Source: an uncultured Phycisphaerales bacterium
GTDB lineage: Bacteria > Planctomycetota > Phycisphaerae > Sedimentisphaerales > Anaerobacaceae
Direction of reading: 5' to 3'
Length of the DNA: 64,000 nucleotides
NCBI GenBank assembly: GCA_937927975.1
Contig: CALEZT010000082.1
Coordinates: 1-64,000, forward strand
The notes beneath the pieces are model-generated. The model worked only from the letters and a program-made list of their open reading frames with translations. It was not told the DNA's origin and made no database searches. How positions within the stretch are numbered: the stretch's first letter is position 1; each line of letters starts with the position of its first letter. Positions 9,149 through 56,095 of the stretch are shown here, one piece after another. The translations under genes and the position numbers were made by a program.

Positions 9149-9350
9149 ACGACACCTCAACGAACTCTCGGAGATTGCGTTCTCGCTATATAGTGCGGTC
9201 TCGGACGGTTTTGCGACAGAAAATCGGCGGGGGGGAGAAAAAGAGCGTTTCCGGCCACTAGCATGCGGTTTCTGGCGGTTCGCGCCCCTCATGAGGGCGA
9301 AGGACCAAAGGAATCCGGCCCGCACCGGGAGTGACATCTCCTCCGGTGCC

Positions 9351-9470
9351 CAGATCCTTCGCTTCGCTCAGGATGACAAGATTTCTGCCATGTGTCGGCT
9401 GTTCAACATGGGTTGGAGATCGTCTGTGTGTAGGTCAAGACCTGTCATCCTGAGCGAAGCGAAGGATCTG
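9351..9470. repeat. Inverted pair of 27-bp REP-like repeats (family R), left of the GIY-YIG gene
   Basis: The 27 bp at 9351-9377 (CAGATCCTTCGCTTCGCTCA...) are the exact reverse complement of 9444-9470, enclosing 66 bp. Further family-R copies lie at 9888-9914, 9952-9976, 61661-61687 and 61741-61768. Paired inverted REP copies of this kind are called REPINs in other bacteria. Confidence 0.85.
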
Positions 9471-9497
9471 GCTTGCGGATGGAATGAGTGTTACAAT

Positions 9498-9845
9498 ATG
9501 CCCATGCGAGGGACCAGAACCTACTACGTCTACATCCTGACCAACAAGTCCGGGACTCTCTACACAGGTGTTACAGGCACGCTCAGAGGCCGCGTCTGGC
9601 AGCACAAGACCAAGCAGGTCGAAGGGTTCACGAAGCGGTACAACATCGACAGGCTGGTCTATTACGAGACGTTCTGCGATGTCTGGTCGGCAATCTCCAG
9701 GGAGAAACAGATCAAAGGCTGGTTACGCCGTAAGAAGCTGGACCTGATCGCCGGTTTGAATCCCGAATGGCAGGACCTCAGCGAAGGCTGGTACACGCCG
9801 GAGCAGTCGCGGGAACAAGAGGACGACCAGAGCCACACCTCGTGA
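9498..9845 (+). CDS. Small GIY-YIG nuclease-domain protein, flanked by family-R repeats
   Basis: A 115-residue stand-alone GIY-YIG protein (UvrC-N/YhbQ-like, COG2827 type). The YVY at 10-12 and YTG at 22-24 are the two signature tripeptides, followed by the catalytic Arg32 (GRVWQHK) and the metal-binding Glu69 (SREKQIKGW), so the active site looks intact. The start used is the ATG at 9498; an in-frame ATG two codons later is equally possible, and the longer frame from 9291 reads through a repeat. The gene sits between family-R repeats on both sides (R at 9444, R and reversed R at 9888 and 9952). It has no co-oriented neighbours. Its cellular role is unknown; the context suggests a connection with the repeats. 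Confidence 0.82.
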   Translation: MPMRGTRTYYVYILTNKSGTLYTGVTGTLRGRVWQHKTKQVEGFTKRYNIDRLVYYETFCDVWSAISREKQIKGWLRRKKLDLIAGLNPEWQDLSEGWYTPEQSREQEDDQSHTS

Positions 9846-9887
9846 GGGACCCGGATTCGGGGTACTTCGTATACGCGAAGGGGGCTT

Positions 9888-9976
9888 GTCATCCTGAGCG
9901 CAGCGAAGGATCTGGGTGACGAGCGCGAAGGTCGCTCCCGGTCGCAGGCCGGATGCTTCACTTCGTTCAGCATGAC
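9888..9976. repeat. Inverted pair of family-R repeats, right of the GIY-YIG gene
   Basis: GTCATCCTGAGCGCAGCGAAG... at 9888-9914 (26 of 27 bases identical to 9444-9470) and an oppositely oriented diverged copy at 9952-9976 (GATGCTTCACTTCGTTCAGC...). Confidence 0.8.
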
Positions 9977-10477: not shown

Positions 10478-10595
10478 CGTGGCGGCATTCTCGCAGTCTC
10501 CGTCGCGATCGTCAACTGCATCTCGATTGTACGGTGGTTCCTCCCCACAAGACGCGGGGGACGCAGAGTCGTTGGGAACTGCCTTCTTGTTCTCC

Positions 10596-10667
10596 CGCAG
10601 AGACGCGGAGGCGCAGAGAAAGGCAAGATGGAACGTCTTTCTGCCTCTGCGCCTCCGCGTCTCTGCG
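10596..10667. repeat. 23-bp perfect inverted repeat (CGCAGAGACGCGG family)
   Basis: CGCAGAGACGCGGAGGCGCA... (10596-10618) is the exact reverse complement of 10645-10667, with a 26-bp spacer. It lies in the 445-bp gap between rnhA and the anti-sigma gene ending at 10923. I see nothing else in that gap apart from the terminator at its end. Confidence 0.8.
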
Positions 10668-10867
10668 CGCAAACAACTCTTCTCCCACACGCTTCGATGA
10701 TCCCCCCGAACCAGCGAGTTCCTCACGCAGATCAAGCTTCTATTGACAAGTCGCTTCCTGGATCAGGAAGTCGAGCTTCCTCGATTCCAAGAACTCCGGC
10801 CTCGTTCAGCGTACGCCCATCTCATAGCACCGCTCGCGGCGCAAAACAAGGAACGGGCGATGCGCAA

Positions 10868-17993: not shown

Positions 17994-18024
17994 GTCCCCG
18001 CGACGGGCGGCAGCGACAAGCGCC

Positions 18025-18119
18025 GGGTGGCAGCGACAAGCGGAGTCTTCGGAGCTTGTCGATGGTTGATCGTTCGTCCGTGAGACACCATCGACAAGCT
18101 GCGCTTGCCGCTGCCACCC
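18025..18119. repeat. 95-bp nested palindromic element (GGTGGCAGCGACAAGC family), copy 1
   Basis: Outer arms GGGTGGCAGCGACAAGC (18025-18041) and 18103-18119 differ at one position, and inner arms AGCTTGTCGATGG (18053-18065) and 18088-18100 are perfect. The first arm is partly duplicated just upstream (18006-18020). A second copy in reverse orientation is at 24955-25047. It fills the gap between convergent genes. Confidence 0.85.
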
Positions 18120-18157
18120 GGGATCGAGTCCTTCCTTGTGCATCCCTCCGTGCGCCG

Positions 18158-23679: not shown

Positions 23680-24079
23680 GGCTCATCCGGCTTTTGCGTA
23701 CTGGGAGATAGGGCAACGACCGGCCGCCGGGGACGCCGTCCCCGGACCCCTGGGATTTCCCGCTTTGGGCCAGAAACATCAGGTGCAGAGCGGAGCCGAT
23801 CCGTGTTCCAGGAAAACCGACACCACTTGCTTTCTGTCCTCCCGCCTGGCGTTGGCTCGGGCGGATCTCTTGTCGCAGGTCCCGCTCTGCTGGGCAGCAA
23901 CCCGCCCCCCGGCGAGAGCCCGCGTTGCGGGAGGGCCACGGTCCAGGGACCTGGGCGACGTTGCCTGTGTGGTTCGTCGCCTTCCCCTATGCCATGTTTC
24001 TGGCGCAAAGCGACAAATCCCAGGGGGCTGGGGACAGCGTCCCCAAAGGCCATGGAAGTACGCGAAAACCGGATGAGCC
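23680..24079. repeat. 400-bp element with 23-bp terminal inverted repeats (GGCTCATCCGG family), copy 1
   Basis: The left end GGCTCATCCGGCTTTTGCGT... (23680-23702) and the inverted right end (24057-24079) agree at 21 of 23 positions. Inside are two inverted copies of a GGGGAC-GTCCCC / CCTGGGATTT / GCCAGAAACA hairpin motif (23729-23785 and 23985-24045). There is no credible gene. A 242-bp copy with the same ends is at 42749-42990. It occupies most of the 960-bp gene-free stretch between sigma unit 5 and the CHC2 gene. Confidence 0.75.
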
Positions 24080-24545: not shown

Positions 24546-24841
24546 GAAAAAAAGGACGCAAGGAGAGGATCATGAGCACTGCTGCAGTGAGTGGAAACCA
24601 GGGTTCGATGAATCCGTTCGAGTTGGTGCTGTCGAAGCTGCCGGACGCCAGGCCGGTGGCGGGCAGTTCGCACAAGGCGTGGAAGGCCCGATGTCCCGCC
24701 CATGCGGACAGCGACCCCAGTCTGTCGGTCACGCTCGGGGACCAGGGCGGCGCGTTGATCCACTGCTACGCAGGCTGCTCGCCCGAGGCGGTCGTCGGAG
24801 CGCTGGGCCTGACGATGGCCGACCTCATGCCGCCGCGGGAA

Positions 24842-24936
24842 ACACAAAGGGGACATTCTACTTTTCCCGCTTGCCCCAACCATCCGCCGGAGAAGGCCAA
24901 CGCGCCGGTTGAAAAAGCAGAATGTCCCCTTTGTGT
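24842..24936. repeat. 95-bp palindromic element with perfect 18-bp arms (AAAGGGGACATTCT family)
   Basis: ACACAAAGGGGACATTCT (24842-24859) and AGAATGTCCCCTTTGTGT (24919-24936) are exact reverse complements. It is inserted in the CHC2 reading frame. Sequences of this kind accompany REP-associated tyrosine transposases in other genomes; no such transposase is in this window. Confidence 0.85.
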
Positions 24937-24954
24937 CTCGGCAGGTTCCTGTCC

Positions 24955-25047
24955 GGGTGGCAGCGACAAGCACCAGCTTGTCGATGGTCTTGTGAACACG
25001 CGAGGGCCATCGACAAGCTCCGAAGACTCCGCTTGTCGCTGCCACGC
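24955..25047. repeat. 93-bp nested palindromic element (GGTGGCAGCGACAAGC family), copy 2
   Basis: The reverse complement of the element at 18025-18119 along the arms; the CGGAGTCTTCGGAGC segment is on the opposite side. It is inserted in the CHC2 reading frame. Confidence 0.85.
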
Positions 25048-25133
25048 GGGATTGGATTCGGACTCCTTGCATTCCTCAAGCCCCCCACGAAATCCAGCCG
25101 CGAGCTTCCCATGACGCGAGCGGTTTTTTGGCG

Positions 25134-29634: not shown

Positions 29635-29767
29635 TTCACCACAGAGACACAGAGTGCACAGAGAAGAATAGGAGAATTGAGATGTGGGATGCGAAGACTA
29701 TTAATCAACAGTCAACCCTCAACAATCACCCCTCTCTTCTCCGTGTCCTCCGTGTCTCTGTGGTGAA
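29635..29767. repeat. 133-bp miniature element with 31-bp terminal inverted repeats (CCACAGAGACAC family)
   Basis: The left end TTCACCACAGAGACACAGAG... (29635-29665) and the inverted right end (29737-29767) belong to the same family as the ends of the GxxExxY unit at 31532-31992. There is no gene inside; the start of the downstream FAD oxidoreductase lies within it. Confidence 0.8.
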
Positions 29768-31529
29768 CGCTCTTCTCTTCTGCTTCGTCGCGTCCGCCGC
29801 CGGCGGGCAGGTCCTGATCGAGGCCGAGAGCTTCGACAACCCCGGCGGGTGGGTCGTCGATCAGCAGTTCATGGGCCAGATGGGCTCGTCCATGCTCCTG
29901 GCGCACGGAATGGGAGTTCCGGTGCCCGACGCTGTGACGAACGTCGCAATCCCGGCGGGCCAGTACCGCGTCTGGGTCCGCACGCGGAACTGGGTCCCGA
30001 CGAGCGAAGGACCCGATGCGCCCGGCCGGTTCCAGGTCCTGATCGACGGCGCGCCGCTGCAGACCACCTTCGGCACGGAAGGGGCCGACTGGCACTGGCA
30101 GAACGGTGGCGAGGTCGAGATCAAGAAGGACAAGATCAAGCTGGCGATCCGCGACCTGACCGGCTTCGACGGCCGATGCGATGCGATCGCGTTCATGAGC
30201 GACCTGTCGGCGCGACCGCCTGAAGGCGAGGCGCTGGCTTCGTTGCGACGTTCGGAGAAACCGCAGGAAGCGGGGCAGTTCGATCTCGTCGTGGTCGGAG
30301 GCGGAATGGCAGGGACCTGCACCGCGATCTCCGCCGCTCGGCTCGGACTGAAGGTGGCCCTCGTCCACGACCGGCCCGTCCTGGGCGGCAACAACAGCTC
30401 GGAGGTCCGCGTCCACCTCAACGGCCAGATCAACCTGCCGCCGTATCCGCGGATCGGCGACGTCGTCGCCGAGCTGGACCCGGCCAACCAGGGCAACGCC
30501 CAGGCCGCGGCCTTCTACAACGACCAGAAGAAGCTCCGCATCGTGAAGAACGAACCCAATCTCCGCCTGTTCCTCAATATGCACGCCTATGCGGTCGAGA
30601 AGCAGGGCGACCGGATCGCCGCGGTCGTCGCCAAGGACATCCGGACCGCGAAGGACCTTCGCTTCGTCGCGCCGTTGTTCGCCGACTGCACAGGCGACGG
30701 GACCATCGGCTTCCTGGCGGGCGCCGATTTCCGCATGGGACGCGAGGGCTGGCAGGAGACGGGCGAAACGCTCGCGCCGCAGGAGCCGGACAAGATGACG
30801 ATGGGCGCCTCGACGCAGTGGTACACGGTCGAGACGCTCAGACCCGCTCCGTTCCCCGAGTGCCCCTGGGCGCTGCCCTTCACCGAGGCAAGCTGCGAGC
30901 ACGCGACTCGCGGCGACTGGAACTGGGAGACCGGCCTGAACAAGGACCAGATCGCGGACTTCGAGTCGATCCGCGACCACGCGCTGCGGGCCGTCTACGG
31001 CAACTGGTCCTTCCTCAAGAACCACAGCAAGGACAAGGCGAAATACACCCACCGCCAGCTCTCCTGGGTCGCGTACATCGCAGGCAAGCGCGAGAGCCGC
31101 CGGCTGCTGGGCGACGTGATCCTCACGCAGCAGGACGTGCAGGAGCAGAAGGTCTATCCCGACGCGATGGTCACGACGACCTGGTCGATCGACCTGCACT
31201 ACCCCGATCCCAAGAACACCGAGCACTTCCCCGGCGAGGAGTTCAAGACGATCTGCAAGACCCCTGCGATCAAGCCCTACGCGATCCCGTACCGCTGCCT
31301 GTACTCGCGCAACGTGGAGAACCTGTTCATGGCCGGACGCGACATCAGCGTCACGCACGTGGCGCTGGGCACCGTCCGCGTCATGCGGACCGGCGGCATG
31401 ATGGGCGAGGTCGTCGGCATGGCCGCGTCGATCTGCAAGAACCGCGACACGACCCCGCGAGGCGTCTTCGTGGAGCACCTTCCCGAGCTGAAGGAACTCG
31501 CCACCCGCGGCGTGGGGAAGAAGAAATAA
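29682..31529 (+). CDS. Secreted FAD-dependent oxidoreductase (FAD_oxidored family)
   Basis: A 615-residue protein. The ATG at 29682 has AGGAGA 7 bp upstream. The signal peptide ([23 protein letters not shown], split here as [10 protein letters not shown] and ALLFCFVASAAGG) is partly encoded by the right end of a dispersed repeat. Residues ~45-170 are a carbohydrate-binding-like beta domain (VLIEAESFDNPGGW). Residues ~205-600 are a flavoprotein with the Rossmann motif VVVGGGMAGTCTAISAARLG, a RPVLGGNNSSEVR block and ADCTGDGTIGFLAGA, all typical of the FAD-dependent oxidoreductases of planctomycete and Bacteroidetes polysaccharide loci. The electron acceptor and substrate are unknown. GTG codons at 29760 and 29763 are possible shorter starts without ribosome sites. 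Confidence 0.82.
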   Translation: MWDAKTINQQSTLNNHPSLLRVLRVSVVNALLFCFVASAAGGQVLIEAESFDNPGGWVVDQQFMGQMGSSMLLAHGMGVPVPDAVTNVAIPAGQYRVWVRTRNWVPTSEGPDAPGRFQVLIDGAPLQTTFGTEGADWHWQNGGEVEIKKDKIKLAIRDLTGFDGRCDAIAFMSDLSARPPEGEALASLRRSEKPQEAGQFDLVVVGGGMAGTCTAISAARLGLKVALVHDRPVLGGNNSSEVRVHLNGQINLPPYPRIGDVVAELDPANQGNAQAAAFYNDQKKLRIVKNEPNLRLFLNMHAYAVEKQGDRIAAVVAKDIRTAKDLRFVAPLFADCTGDGTIGFLAGADFRMGREGWQETGETLAPQEPDKMTMGASTQWYTVETLRPAPFPECPWALPFTEASCEHATRGDWNWETGLNKDQIADFESIRDHALRAVYGNWSFLKNHSKDKAKYTHRQLSWVAYIAGKRESRRLLGDVILTQQDVQEQKVYPDAMVTTTWSIDLHYPDPKNTEHFPGEEFKTICKTPAIKPYAIPYRCLYSRNVENLFMAGRDISVTHVALGTVRVMRTGGMMGEVVGMAASICKNRDTTPRGVFVEHLPELKELATRGVGKKK

Positions 31530-31531
31530 CA

Positions 31532-31992
31532 TTCACCACAGAGACACGGAGGACACGGAGAACAGAAGAAGGGAGGGGAGATGGATAGGAATGAGATTAC
31601 CGAACGGGTGATTGGGGCCGCGATTGAAGTGCACCGCGCGCTGGGGCCTGGATTGCTGGAATCCGCCTATGAGGAGTGTCTCGCGCATGAGCTTGCGCTG
31701 GGGGGCGTGACGTTCGACCGGCAGCGGCCGTTGCCTGTCGAGTACAAGGGAGTCATGCTCGATTGCGAATATCGTTTGGATCTGCTTGTCGAGAATACGG
31801 TCGTCGTGGAGATCAAGGCGGTCTCGGAGATCGAGCCTGTGCACGAGGCGCAACTGTTGACCTACCTCCGCCTGGGCGGCTGGCGGGTCGGCCTCCTGAT
31901 CAACTTCAACGTCCCTGTCCTGAAAAACGGCATTCGTCGGAGGGTTTTATGATTCCCTTTCTTCTCCGTGTCCTCTGTGTCTCCGTGGTGAA
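31532..31992. mobile_element. Putative 461-bp repeat-bounded unit carrying a GxxExxY gene
   Basis: Ends of 31 bp (31532-31562 and inverted 31962-31992) match at 29 of 31 positions and enclose a single gene, the PD-(D/E)XK-like GxxExxY protein. The gene-less 133-bp relative at 29635-29767 has the same ends. Organisation resembles a minimal autonomous element plus a miniature derivative. No target-site duplication was identified, and mobility is inferred. Confidence 0.45.
31581..31952 (+). CDS. GxxExxY protein (PD-(D/E)XK nuclease-like)
   Basis: A 123-residue protein of the GxxExxY family (PDDEXK_3). The name-giving motif [13 protein letters not shown] is at ~23-35. It is followed by the nuclease-like core: [16 protein letters not shown] supplies the D ... 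E-x-K metal-binding motif, and [12 protein letters not shown] the following helix with the usual Gln. All core residues are there, so activity is plausible, but the biological role of the family is not established. GGGAGGGGAG precedes the ATG. The stop overlaps the next start in ATGA fashion. The gene lies inside 31-bp inverted repeats. Confidence 0.88.
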
Positions 31993-33511
31993 CACTCTTC
32001 CCGTCCCTCCGGCCGCGGTCGAGCAGGCAACCGATTCGGCGCGGATCGCCGGCTATGCCATGAGCAAGGTCCAGCGATGGCTGCATGAGACCGCGCTGCC
32101 TGTCATCGACCCGAACACCGGGCTCTATCCCGCCGACGGGCTCTGGAACTACCGCGACACCGCCGCGGACTGCTATCCCTTCCTGTGCTGGGCCGCGTTC
32201 GTTACCGATCTCGATGCGCTCAACGGGCCCGTTCGGAACGTCCTGCGCGTCGAGCAGAAACTCTGCAACCATCTCGACCGCATCCCGGTCCCGTACGATT
32301 GGAGGAAGGGCCGAAAGCTCGCCCCCGAGTACGACGAGCTGATCTTCCAAGCCTCCGAGTACGTCAAGGACGGACTGATCGCCATCGTCGAGGTCACCGG
32401 CCGCGACGAGTGGTTCGATCGGATGCTCGCCATCGAGGAAGACATCTGGAAACACGCGAGGATCGACACGCCCTTCGGCAGGATCCCCTCGCTGAACGTC
32501 GAGGTCAATGGCGAGCAGCTCCAGGCCCTGGCCCGCCTGTACACCATGACCGGACGCGAAGAGTTCGTCGTGTGGGCCGAGCGACTGGCGGACTATTACT
32601 TCGCCCAGCCGGACTTCGTCCCCGAGCGGCTTCGCGATCACGGCTGCGAGATCATCGGCGGCCTGGGCCTGCTCCTGGCGGTCGAGACCCAGAACAACCG
32701 ACCGAAGGCCAGAGAATACCAGGCCAAGCTCAAACACGTCTTCAACACGATCCTGGCCCAGGGCTGCAACGAGGACGGCCTGATGTTCAACCACCTCACA
32801 AAACGCGACGGCGGCAACGGCGCCCTGAGCGACGGGTGGGGCTACAACTACGTCGGCTATCTCTGCTACGACATGGCCGTGGGCCGGCCCCTCTATCGCG
32901 AGCAGGTCCGTCGAACGCTGGCCAACCTCCGCAAGCCCGCCTACGACCGCTACAACTGGGAGGGCAACTACTCGATCGACGGCTTCGCCGACTCGATCGA
33001 AGGAGCGATCTACCTGCTCAACCGCGTCCCGGTCGAGGAGGGCTTCCAATGGGTGGACCGCGAGATGGCCCGCAGTGTCACGCGGTCGAGCGAGCCGCTG
33101 GAGACCGCGAAGCTCTGGGGCACGATGAAGCTGGAGTCCAACGGCGTCCGCACCGTCCTGATGCATGCGCTGATGCACACGCAAGGCGTGATCGCGCGAC
33201 CCTGGCGAAAGGGCCTGGAACTCGGCGCGGCCCGCACGGACGAGGGGCTCGTCCTGGTGATCCGGTCGGACAAGCCCTGGTCGGGCAAGCTCTGCTTCGA
33301 CATCCCCCGCCACAGAGAGTACATGGGCTTTGAGAAGGACTGGCCCCGCATGAACACGCTGCCCGAGTGGTTCACGGTCGAGCCCGCGCGGCAATACACG
33401 ATCCGCGACCTCGACACCGGCTCCCAAACCCCCCGCACCGGCAGACAACTCCACGAAGGCTGGGACCTCGTCCTCGCCCCCGGCGTCGCCCGGCGCCTGG
33501 CGATCCGATGA
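31949..33511 (+). CDS. Secreted alpha-helical (six-hairpin-like) protein, possible glycoside-active enzyme
   Basis: A 520-residue protein from the ATG at 31949 (GGAGGG 5 bp upstream, inside the end of the GxxExxY gene). The N-terminal hydrophobic stretch ([16 protein letters not shown]) is encoded by the right inverted repeat of the upstream unit. The body shows repeated helix pairs ([71 protein letters not shown]) typical of (alpha/alpha)6 barrels of glycosidases, epimerases or heparinase-type proteins. There is a C-terminal beta-sandwich-like tail. No catalytic signature was assigned. It follows the FAD oxidoreductase and may act on the same polysaccharide. Confidence 0.65.
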
Positions 33512-41282: not shown

Positions 41283-41284
41283 GG

Positions 41285-41352
41285 CGCGTACCTGGGGACG
41301 CTGTCCCCAGACCCCTGGGATTTTGCGATTGGAGCCAGTAACAGGTTGATGG
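41285..41352. repeat. Hairpin element GGGGACGCTGTCCCC / CCTGGGATTTTGCG, copy after protein C
   Basis: See 40455-40515. The 686-bp gene-free stretch 41283-41968 also contains a GTCATTCCTGCGAAAGCAGG palindromic repeat (41388-41415) and an inverted hairpin copy at 41735-41800. Confidence 0.75.
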
Positions 41353-41387
41353 GAGAGGATGGGTGTCATCTGTCAATTGCCTGGACC

Positions 41388-41415
41388 CCGTCATTCCTGC
41401 GAAAGCAGGAATCCA
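41388..41415. repeat. GTCATTCCTGCGAAAGCAGGAAT-type dispersed repeat
   Basis: The core ATTCCTGC-GAAA-GCAGGAAT is a perfect 8-bp stem with a GAAA loop, a widespread type of bacterial interspersed repeat. Confidence 0.75.
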
Positions 41416-41734
41416 GGGATACTGGAATCGTCGGTATCCGCTGACGCGGATTCCCGCCTCTGATCGGGTCGGGGGCAGGCCTTCCGCGGAATGGCCATCC
41501 GAGGCGAAGCCTGTGATTCGCCGGATCTTCACGTTGGCGTCCTTTCGCCCGCCAGGGAATCTGGGCATACCCGGAACGTCGCTATCGCCAGAACTTCCTT
41601 GCGGAGATAGGTGGCATATGATATCCTGAACTGTGCCGTCACAGAGGATAGGGCTCTGCCGGGAGGCAACCCGAGCGCTGTGGCGGGCCGGTGACAGGGC
41701 GACGCGCCGCGAATGGCGCGTCGCCTGCTTGACA

Positions 41735-41800
41735 TGAGCCTGTTGCCGGCCCAAAGCGGAAAATCCCAGGGGTCAGGGGACAGCGTCCCCAGGTATGGGC
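41735..41800. repeat. Hairpin element of the GGGGAC/CCTGGGATTTT family, inverted copy
   Basis: Reads CCTGTTGCCGGCCCAAAGCG, AAAATCCCAGGGG, then GGGGACAGCGTCCCC on the plus strand, i.e. the reverse orientation of the copies at 40455 and 41285. Confidence 0.7.
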
Positions 41801-56021: not shown

Positions 56022-56095
56022 ATGGTGCGTCGTACGCACCCTACAAGACTACAAGACGCATCGCCACAGCCTGTAGGGTGCGTACCACGCACCAT
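56022..56095. repeat. Palindromic repeat with 24-bp arms (GTAGGGTGCGTAC family)
   Basis: ATGGTGCGTCGTACGCACCC... (56022-56045) and its inverted partner (56072-56095) match at 23 of 24 positions. It lies between the convergent kinase and pseudopilin genes and may double as a terminator. Confidence 0.85.

Follow-up and report, generated by a model that had tools for sequence, protein, structure and literature searches.

A GxxExxY nuclease gene between inverted tandem 7-mer ends: a probable compact mobile element

The GxxExxY unit and its gene-less companion

The window analyzed here, 64,000 nucleotides of contig CALEZT010000082.1 from an uncultured Phycisphaerales bacterium (assembly GCA_937927975.1), carries a 461-bp unit (31532-31992) in which a GxxExxY nuclease-like gene lies between 31-bp inverted ends, and which we read as a probable compact mobile element. 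The left end (31532-31562, forward strand) consists of TTCAC followed by the 7-mers CACAGAG, CACGGAG, and CACGGAG. The right end (31962-31992, reverse strand) is complementary to it at 29 of 31 positions (94%). Each arm reads as TTCAC plus three CACRGAG 7-mers at spacings of 8 and 9 bp. The gene (31581-31952, forward strand) encodes a 123-residue PD-(D/E)XK nuclease-like protein with E27, D67, E77, and K79 in place. It matches PF13366 (PDDEXK_3; E 2.8e-44, 150.7 bits; curated cut-off 22) and TIGR04256 (E 1e-45, 154.9 bits; curated cut-off 35), and is a clear member of this family by both motif and catalytic residues. The motif and D...ExK core (G24, E27, Y30, D67, E77, and K79) are found in the window protein and in 207 to 209 of 209 relatives, with catalytic residues retained in 208 to 209 of the 209.

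Arm pairing and family matches thus bear out the first-pass annotation, which had described ends matching at 29 of 31 positions around a 123-residue GxxExxY gene. Its statement that this is the only gene inside holds for complete genes only, because the downstream gene starts within the unit (ATG at 31949-31951). A Pfam search (E 0.001) with the single complete gene inside the unit returns PF13366 alone, with no DDE, HUH, or recombinase-type transposase domain. With the GxxExxY protein as query, a PDB sequence search yields nothing up to E 10, Foldseek against PDB nothing at E ≤0.001 (best 3.3e-3), and PHROGs nothing at E 0.1. As a check on chance, the 12-mer CCACAGAGACAC occurs in the window as three exact copies and one copy with a single mismatch, all four at unit ends; at up to two mismatches there are 10 matches, a number reached by 5 of 100 shuffled sequences.

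A 133-bp unit with the same ends and no gene, likewise reported in the first-pass annotation, is present 1.9 kb upstream (29635-29767); its arms pair at 85% over 40 nt, and its interior has a stretch of 7-bp period, TCAACAGTCAACCCTCAACAATCA. As RNA it folds far below shuffled sequences (z of -7.1 and -10.9 on the two strands). So stable an RNA hairpin would suit an immobile gene whose hairpins are terminators or RNA-stability structures, a reading to which we return with the evidence on movement. A third hairpin with AG-type ends (7-mers ending in AG) and no gene inside spans 90 bp at 10587-10676.

Further inverted-repeat families lie in the window. Two related gene-less units of about 400 to 500 bp (..CCCTGGGATTT..GGGGACGCTGTCCCC..) are found at 23680-24079 and 41284-41800, and others, with GGGGACATTCTACTTTT, CATCCTGAGCGAAGCGAAGGATCTGG, and CCGGGTGGCAGCGACAAGC, at 24839-24939, 9335-9486, 9349-9916, 18023-18121, and 24953-25049.

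Ends and protein across genomes

A scan of genome contigs found 334 GxxExxY relatives, of which the best 80 loci were kept. Inward-facing ends, CCRCRRAGRCRCRRAG with at most two mismatches, flank the gene on both sides in 63 of the 71 loci with 400 bp on either side, whereas random 360-bp intervals in the same 80 loci fall within inward ends in 24 of 7,290 cases. Among the eight exceptions, read by eye, L014 has an indel in its left end, L074 has another spacing, L002 is without a right end, and L048 is without a left end; the others are weighed below. Because these loci are close relatives found with one motif, the sample was then widened, to counter such bias, with genes from Planctomycetota, Cyanobacteria, and Desulfobacterota to 217 distinct genes, 205 of them with enough flank, and searched free of any motif for inverted repeats between 250-bp flanks (score cut-off 14). 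Such ends are found around 164 of the 205 GxxExxY genes and around 4 of 391 random intervals. As a negative control, PIN genes have them in 0 of 30 cases (from 18 of 20 genomes searched), with the gene start set at base 1501 in all 30 loci and possibly off near contig ends. The link between gene and ends, tested in the way the first-pass annotation had proposed, therefore stands: GxxExxY genes and inverted ends occur together across phyla.

Relatives in different phyla are up to 85% identical, and eight plasmid records carry GxxExxY relatives, each below 60% identity. In five loci from hosts of several phyla (L006, L010, L014, L015, and L101), the unit precedes a like gene whose product starts (M)E(P/H)WYK (translation by eye), and some of the spread may be hitchhiking on this shared gene cluster.

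Genes without strict ends mostly have ends of the same build with another 7-mer (CATGAAG, CACGAAG, CGCAAAG, CGCCAAG, CACAGAT, or CGCAGAT). The 7-mers are spaced mostly by 8 to 9 bp in the AG type and by 9 to 10 bp in the AT type. We mapped the last two bases, AG (128 genes) or AT (29 genes), onto a protein tree of 209 rows and 120 columns with many unresolved forks and 157 labelled genes. The split requires a single change, while 200 shuffles of the labels require 20 to 29. Automatic labels (AG 124, AT 18) already gave one change, 21 labels were added by eye before the tree was seen, and the 41 of 205 genes scoring below 14 received no end label. Within the AG type, position 5 of the 7-mer takes 9 changes where shuffles take 17 or more, position 2 takes 20 against 32 or more, and position 4, with 24 against 24 or more, is almost unconstrained. 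As positions 1 and 6 are fixed by the search expression, positions 2 to 5 and 7 alone are informative.

With the AG/AT split falling at a single point of the protein tree, the ends vary in concert with the nuclease. That non-coding ends keep step with a protein at this depth suggests that the nuclease recognizes them, with joint inheritance also contributing, and points to a type of mobile element that has so far been overlooked. It also bears on the possibility that another enzyme moves the hairpins in trans and that GxxExxY is carried along as cargo, with a role for instance in defence, addiction, or regulation. Gene orientation fits a cargo gene, being in sense with both neighbours in 42 of 65 callable units and against both in 6, as does a weak Cas4-like profile match in a defence library. 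Cargo, however, need not follow the end sequence as GxxExxY does, and we hold this explanation to be improbable.

Insertion site and movement of the unit

Two protein genes adjoin the unit. Upstream is a gene resembling flavin adenine dinucleotide (FAD) oxidoreductases (29682-31529, forward strand; PF12831, E 9.6e-71 over 29769-31526). Its open reading frame (ORF) call begins within the gene-less unit, whose right arm would therefore code for its leader; this start is putative, and relative L333 has a similar one (by eye). Downstream is a gene for 520 residues (31949-33511, forward strand), whose ATG overlaps the TGA of the GxxExxY gene and whose N-terminal leader is encoded by the right arm of the GxxExxY unit.

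The FAD protein was searched in 89 genomes from the family of the nearest relative, with matches in 66. Thirty loci were fetched, 18 of them with a frame of at least 961 residues, and the site was read in 17 of the 30 and in L304 (L362 ends before the site). In three more distant relatives (L336, L338, and L339), the FAD and downstream domains form one uninterrupted ORF; in the window, L334, L335, and L304, the GxxExxY unit stands between them. From this comparison, the unit most likely inserted into one fused gene and split it in two. A point against this is L333, the closest relative (95% amino acid identity), which has neither unit nor downstream domain, so that a later loss would be needed. 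L343, with a different hairpin at the FAD/downstream junction, speaks against a simple history of the site, and the linker between the two domains is too divergent to place the exact insertion junction.

The L343 hairpin resembles one of another family, GTAGGGTGCGT..ACGCACC, at 56022-56095 of the window, and a like hairpin occupies the gene-less unit's place in L334. In relative G385 (L019:1222-3003), that place holds a TIGR04255 gene (E 2.9e-35) and further ORFs, followed by a retained right arm; a left-arm remnant there is doubtful.

Movement is also suggested by units at unrelated sites. The DNA shared by L244 and L246, from two genomes (73.5% identical), reaches 42 bp beyond the gene on its left and 48 bp on its right, which is from end to end, and in L034/L101 and L102/L414, each pair within one genome, shared DNA is likewise limited to the unit. 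None of these three pairs represents a recent, nearly identical duplication. For L064/L100 and L142/L144 the similarity runs past one end, and the longer matches L102/L413 and L207/L211 extend far into the flanks. In eight orthologous pairs (79 to 95% identical) the unit occupies one and the same position in both members, so moves are infrequent.

This retention, the stable RNA hairpin, and the sense bias with neighbours are the case for an immobile gene. Set against it are the interrupted fused gene, paralogues that have the unit alone in common, relatives of up to 85% identity in different phyla, and the absence of such ends from PIN genes of such genomes, and we regard an immobile gene as very improbable. 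Mobility of the unit is well supported by these sequence comparisons, and the nuclease is the likely mobility enzyme. The mobility proposed in the first-pass annotation is accordingly supported by unit-limited homology and the interrupted fused gene, with the nuclease as its putative agent.

Target-site duplications, which the annotation had suggested looking for, are not found above chance: in 89 AG-type units, a shared direct word of at least 7 within 14 bp occurs in 1, with 0.77 expected. Visual inspection showed one clear 4-bp duplication (AGTT), at a different 7-bp-type element in G343. In the close genomes G381 and G343, one intergenic slot holds a 4-helix-bundle-like unit (G381:C2, about 244253-244704) and a decayed GxxExxY unit (G343:C4, about 107577-108145), respectively, both adjoining the same right end.

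The missing duplication and such slot exchange with one end kept favour the chief rival explanation, in which the hairpins are older and separately maintained and GxxExxY is a homing-type selfish nuclease that cuts hairpins with cognate 7-mers and is copied in by break repair. At the 3' site of the window, however, the allele used for comparison is a fused gene without interruption and not a hairpin, and paralogues at unrelated sites show homology of the ends along with that of the gene. We consider homing into existing hairpins unlikely, even with the further points in its favour given below.

Gene-less copies, related systems, and a possible mechanism

The fetched loci, most of them centred on GxxExxY genes, total 1.24 Mb and hold 117 pairs of inward AG ends within 2 kb: 60 with GxxExxY, 54 shorter than 300 bp without it (median 71 bp), and 3 others. 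Only these 3 of the 57 pairs without GxxExxY reach 300 bp, which argues against GxxExxY as one cargo of a separate enzyme, though the loci were chosen around its genes. Among 246 Planctomycetota genomes, the gene is present in 42 of 49 with at least four strict AG ends and in 70 of 197 with fewer (Fisher 1.5e-10), so the ends are not equally common without the gene; equal frequency was what the first-pass annotation had named as telling against the link. The AT-type pattern behaves alike, with the gene in 40 of 48 genomes with the pattern and 72 of 198 without. In the Planctomycetota genome G017 (12.3 Mb), strict AG ends number 239 in each orientation, but there are only two GxxExxY matches.

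Several observations weigh against an element moved by its own resident nuclease. No near-identical recent gene-bearing copies were found at unrelated sites in 16 genomes, the best unit-limited match being 86 to 87%. The remaining exceptions among the 71 loci show outward-facing ends (L052, L055, and L079) or an array (L033), by eye. Seven of 134 gene-negative genomes have at least four strict AG ends, and flavours of end and gene match only partially per genome: 16 genomes with AT-type sampled genes have AT ends in 13 and AG ends in 9, 36 with AG-type sampled genes have AG ends in 27 and AT ends in 13, and G029 has 56 AG ends, yet its single gene is of the AT type. Finally, the three gene-less families examined, in G029, G075, and G214, reach past the ends.

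The seven gene-negative genomes and the partial flavour match mean that ends do not strictly depend on a resident gene. Gene loss, incomplete assembly, or another enzyme could account for such genomes; as they carry no completeness figures, an apparently missing gene may simply lie outside the assembled sequence. A separate enzyme with GxxExxY as cargo would leave ends in genomes lacking the gene, as in these seven, while gene-less families reaching past the ends and the many genomes with far more ends than genes (478 strict ends and two genes in G017) would fit homing into older hairpins. The first-pass notion of an autonomous element with its miniature inverted-repeat transposable element is therefore retained in part: gene-less copies exist, but there is no target-site duplication, three gene-less families exceed the ends, and some genomes have many ends without the gene.

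Genes of a second family occupy other hairpins with 7-bp repeats. We sampled PF05635 (4-helix-bundle) genes, L161-L190, from 21 genomes selected for having ends or GxxExxY genes. Inverted tandem repeats (score at least 14) enclose 19 of the 29 genes, and in 15 of these the period is 7 bp; the repeat types include AGGCGGC, GTTCGGT, GTTGAAA, and GATTGCT. These look like parallel hairpin elements, and their presence in other heptad hairpins is a further point for the cargo explanation. In the consulted part of the source, a PF05635 (S23p) ORF is described in 23S rRNA intervening sequences of about 430 nt, as the one ORF between terminal inverted repeats, with horizontal transfer and mobility proposed (PMC4990558). 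The window unit shares with these, as far as that account goes, small size and one ORF between terminal inverted repeats; it differs in having PF13366 rather than PF05635 and in lying between two protein genes, not inside 23S rRNA.

Insertion sequences commonly combine terminal inverted repeats, one gene, and gene-less derivatives, and some of their families also lack target-site duplications. The GxxExxY unit is like them in its terminal inverted repeats (29 of 31) and its presence at unrelated sites, and unlike the classical form in having no Pfam transposase domain and no target-site duplication. PD-(D/E)XK homing endonucleases (I-Bth0305I domain, 3r3p, a weak Foldseek match to the GxxExxY protein at E 0.11) are similar as lone small nuclease genes acting as selfish elements, whereas the GxxExxY unit is bounded by inverted heptads and is not in an intron or intein. 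Repetitive extragenic palindromes (REP) and REP-associated tyrosine transposases (RAYT) combine, in the section consulted, one gene with matching palindromic repeats and many gene-less intergenic copies (PMC3733652). To that extent the outline is alike, whereas the sole gene here is a PD-(D/E)XK nuclease with no HUH/Y1 transposase, and the ends are tandem 7-mers. No Y1 (HUH) transposase lies between the ends (PF13366 only), and no search for RAYT genes elsewhere in the host was made. Intergenic tandem heptamers that vary between close relatives, TAACTGA in Beggiatoaceae and GGGAATC in Xanthomonas, have proposed regulatory or quadruplex roles in the parts of the sources consulted (PMC4679880, PMC4692102). 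They are likewise short intergenic tandem 7-mers, and those parts link no gene to them. TIGR04256 and PF13366 are described in the libraries simply as a nuclease-like family; their association with inverted heptads and with mobility comes from the present analysis. Our literature search, which covered few subscription journals, found no paper on a GxxExxY gene with inverted ends or mobility.

On balance, we think it somewhat probable that the GxxExxY gene belongs to a compact mobile element with inverted ends of about three tandem 7-mers, whose nuclease recognizes its own ends and which spreads by break repair. The nuclease would recognize the 7-mer repeats, perhaps as a hairpin or cruciform, and would cut there. 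Break repair would then copy the unit, or the hairpin alone, into another slot, often replacing the previous content, and foldback copying between the arms would maintain similarity among the repeats. Hairpins without a gene may be internally deleted or trans-mobilized copies. More tentatively, GxxExxY elements could form a separate class of mobile DNA, in which a lone PD-(D/E)XK nuclease reads and co-evolves with a hairpin 7-mer code (position 7 marking a deep clade, position 5 a subclade) and break repair proceeds without target duplication. S23p/4-helix-bundle units might then be a parallel class, the two together making up much of the short-repeat intergenic hairpin DNA in many bacteria.

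GxxExxY proteins are annotated in many phyla without a function, and their matching ends offer one that can be tested, while the link to the gene would explain a widespread set of intergenic hairpins. Because the end sequence tracks the protein clade, one base above all, the family may offer a naturally occurring code for the specificity of a very small PD-(D/E)XK nuclease. In the window, the unit would have made two genes from one, supplying the second of them with a start codon and a signal-peptide-like leader. If the parallel with 4-helix-bundle units holds, the long-open spread of 23S rRNA intervening sequences would become testable as well.
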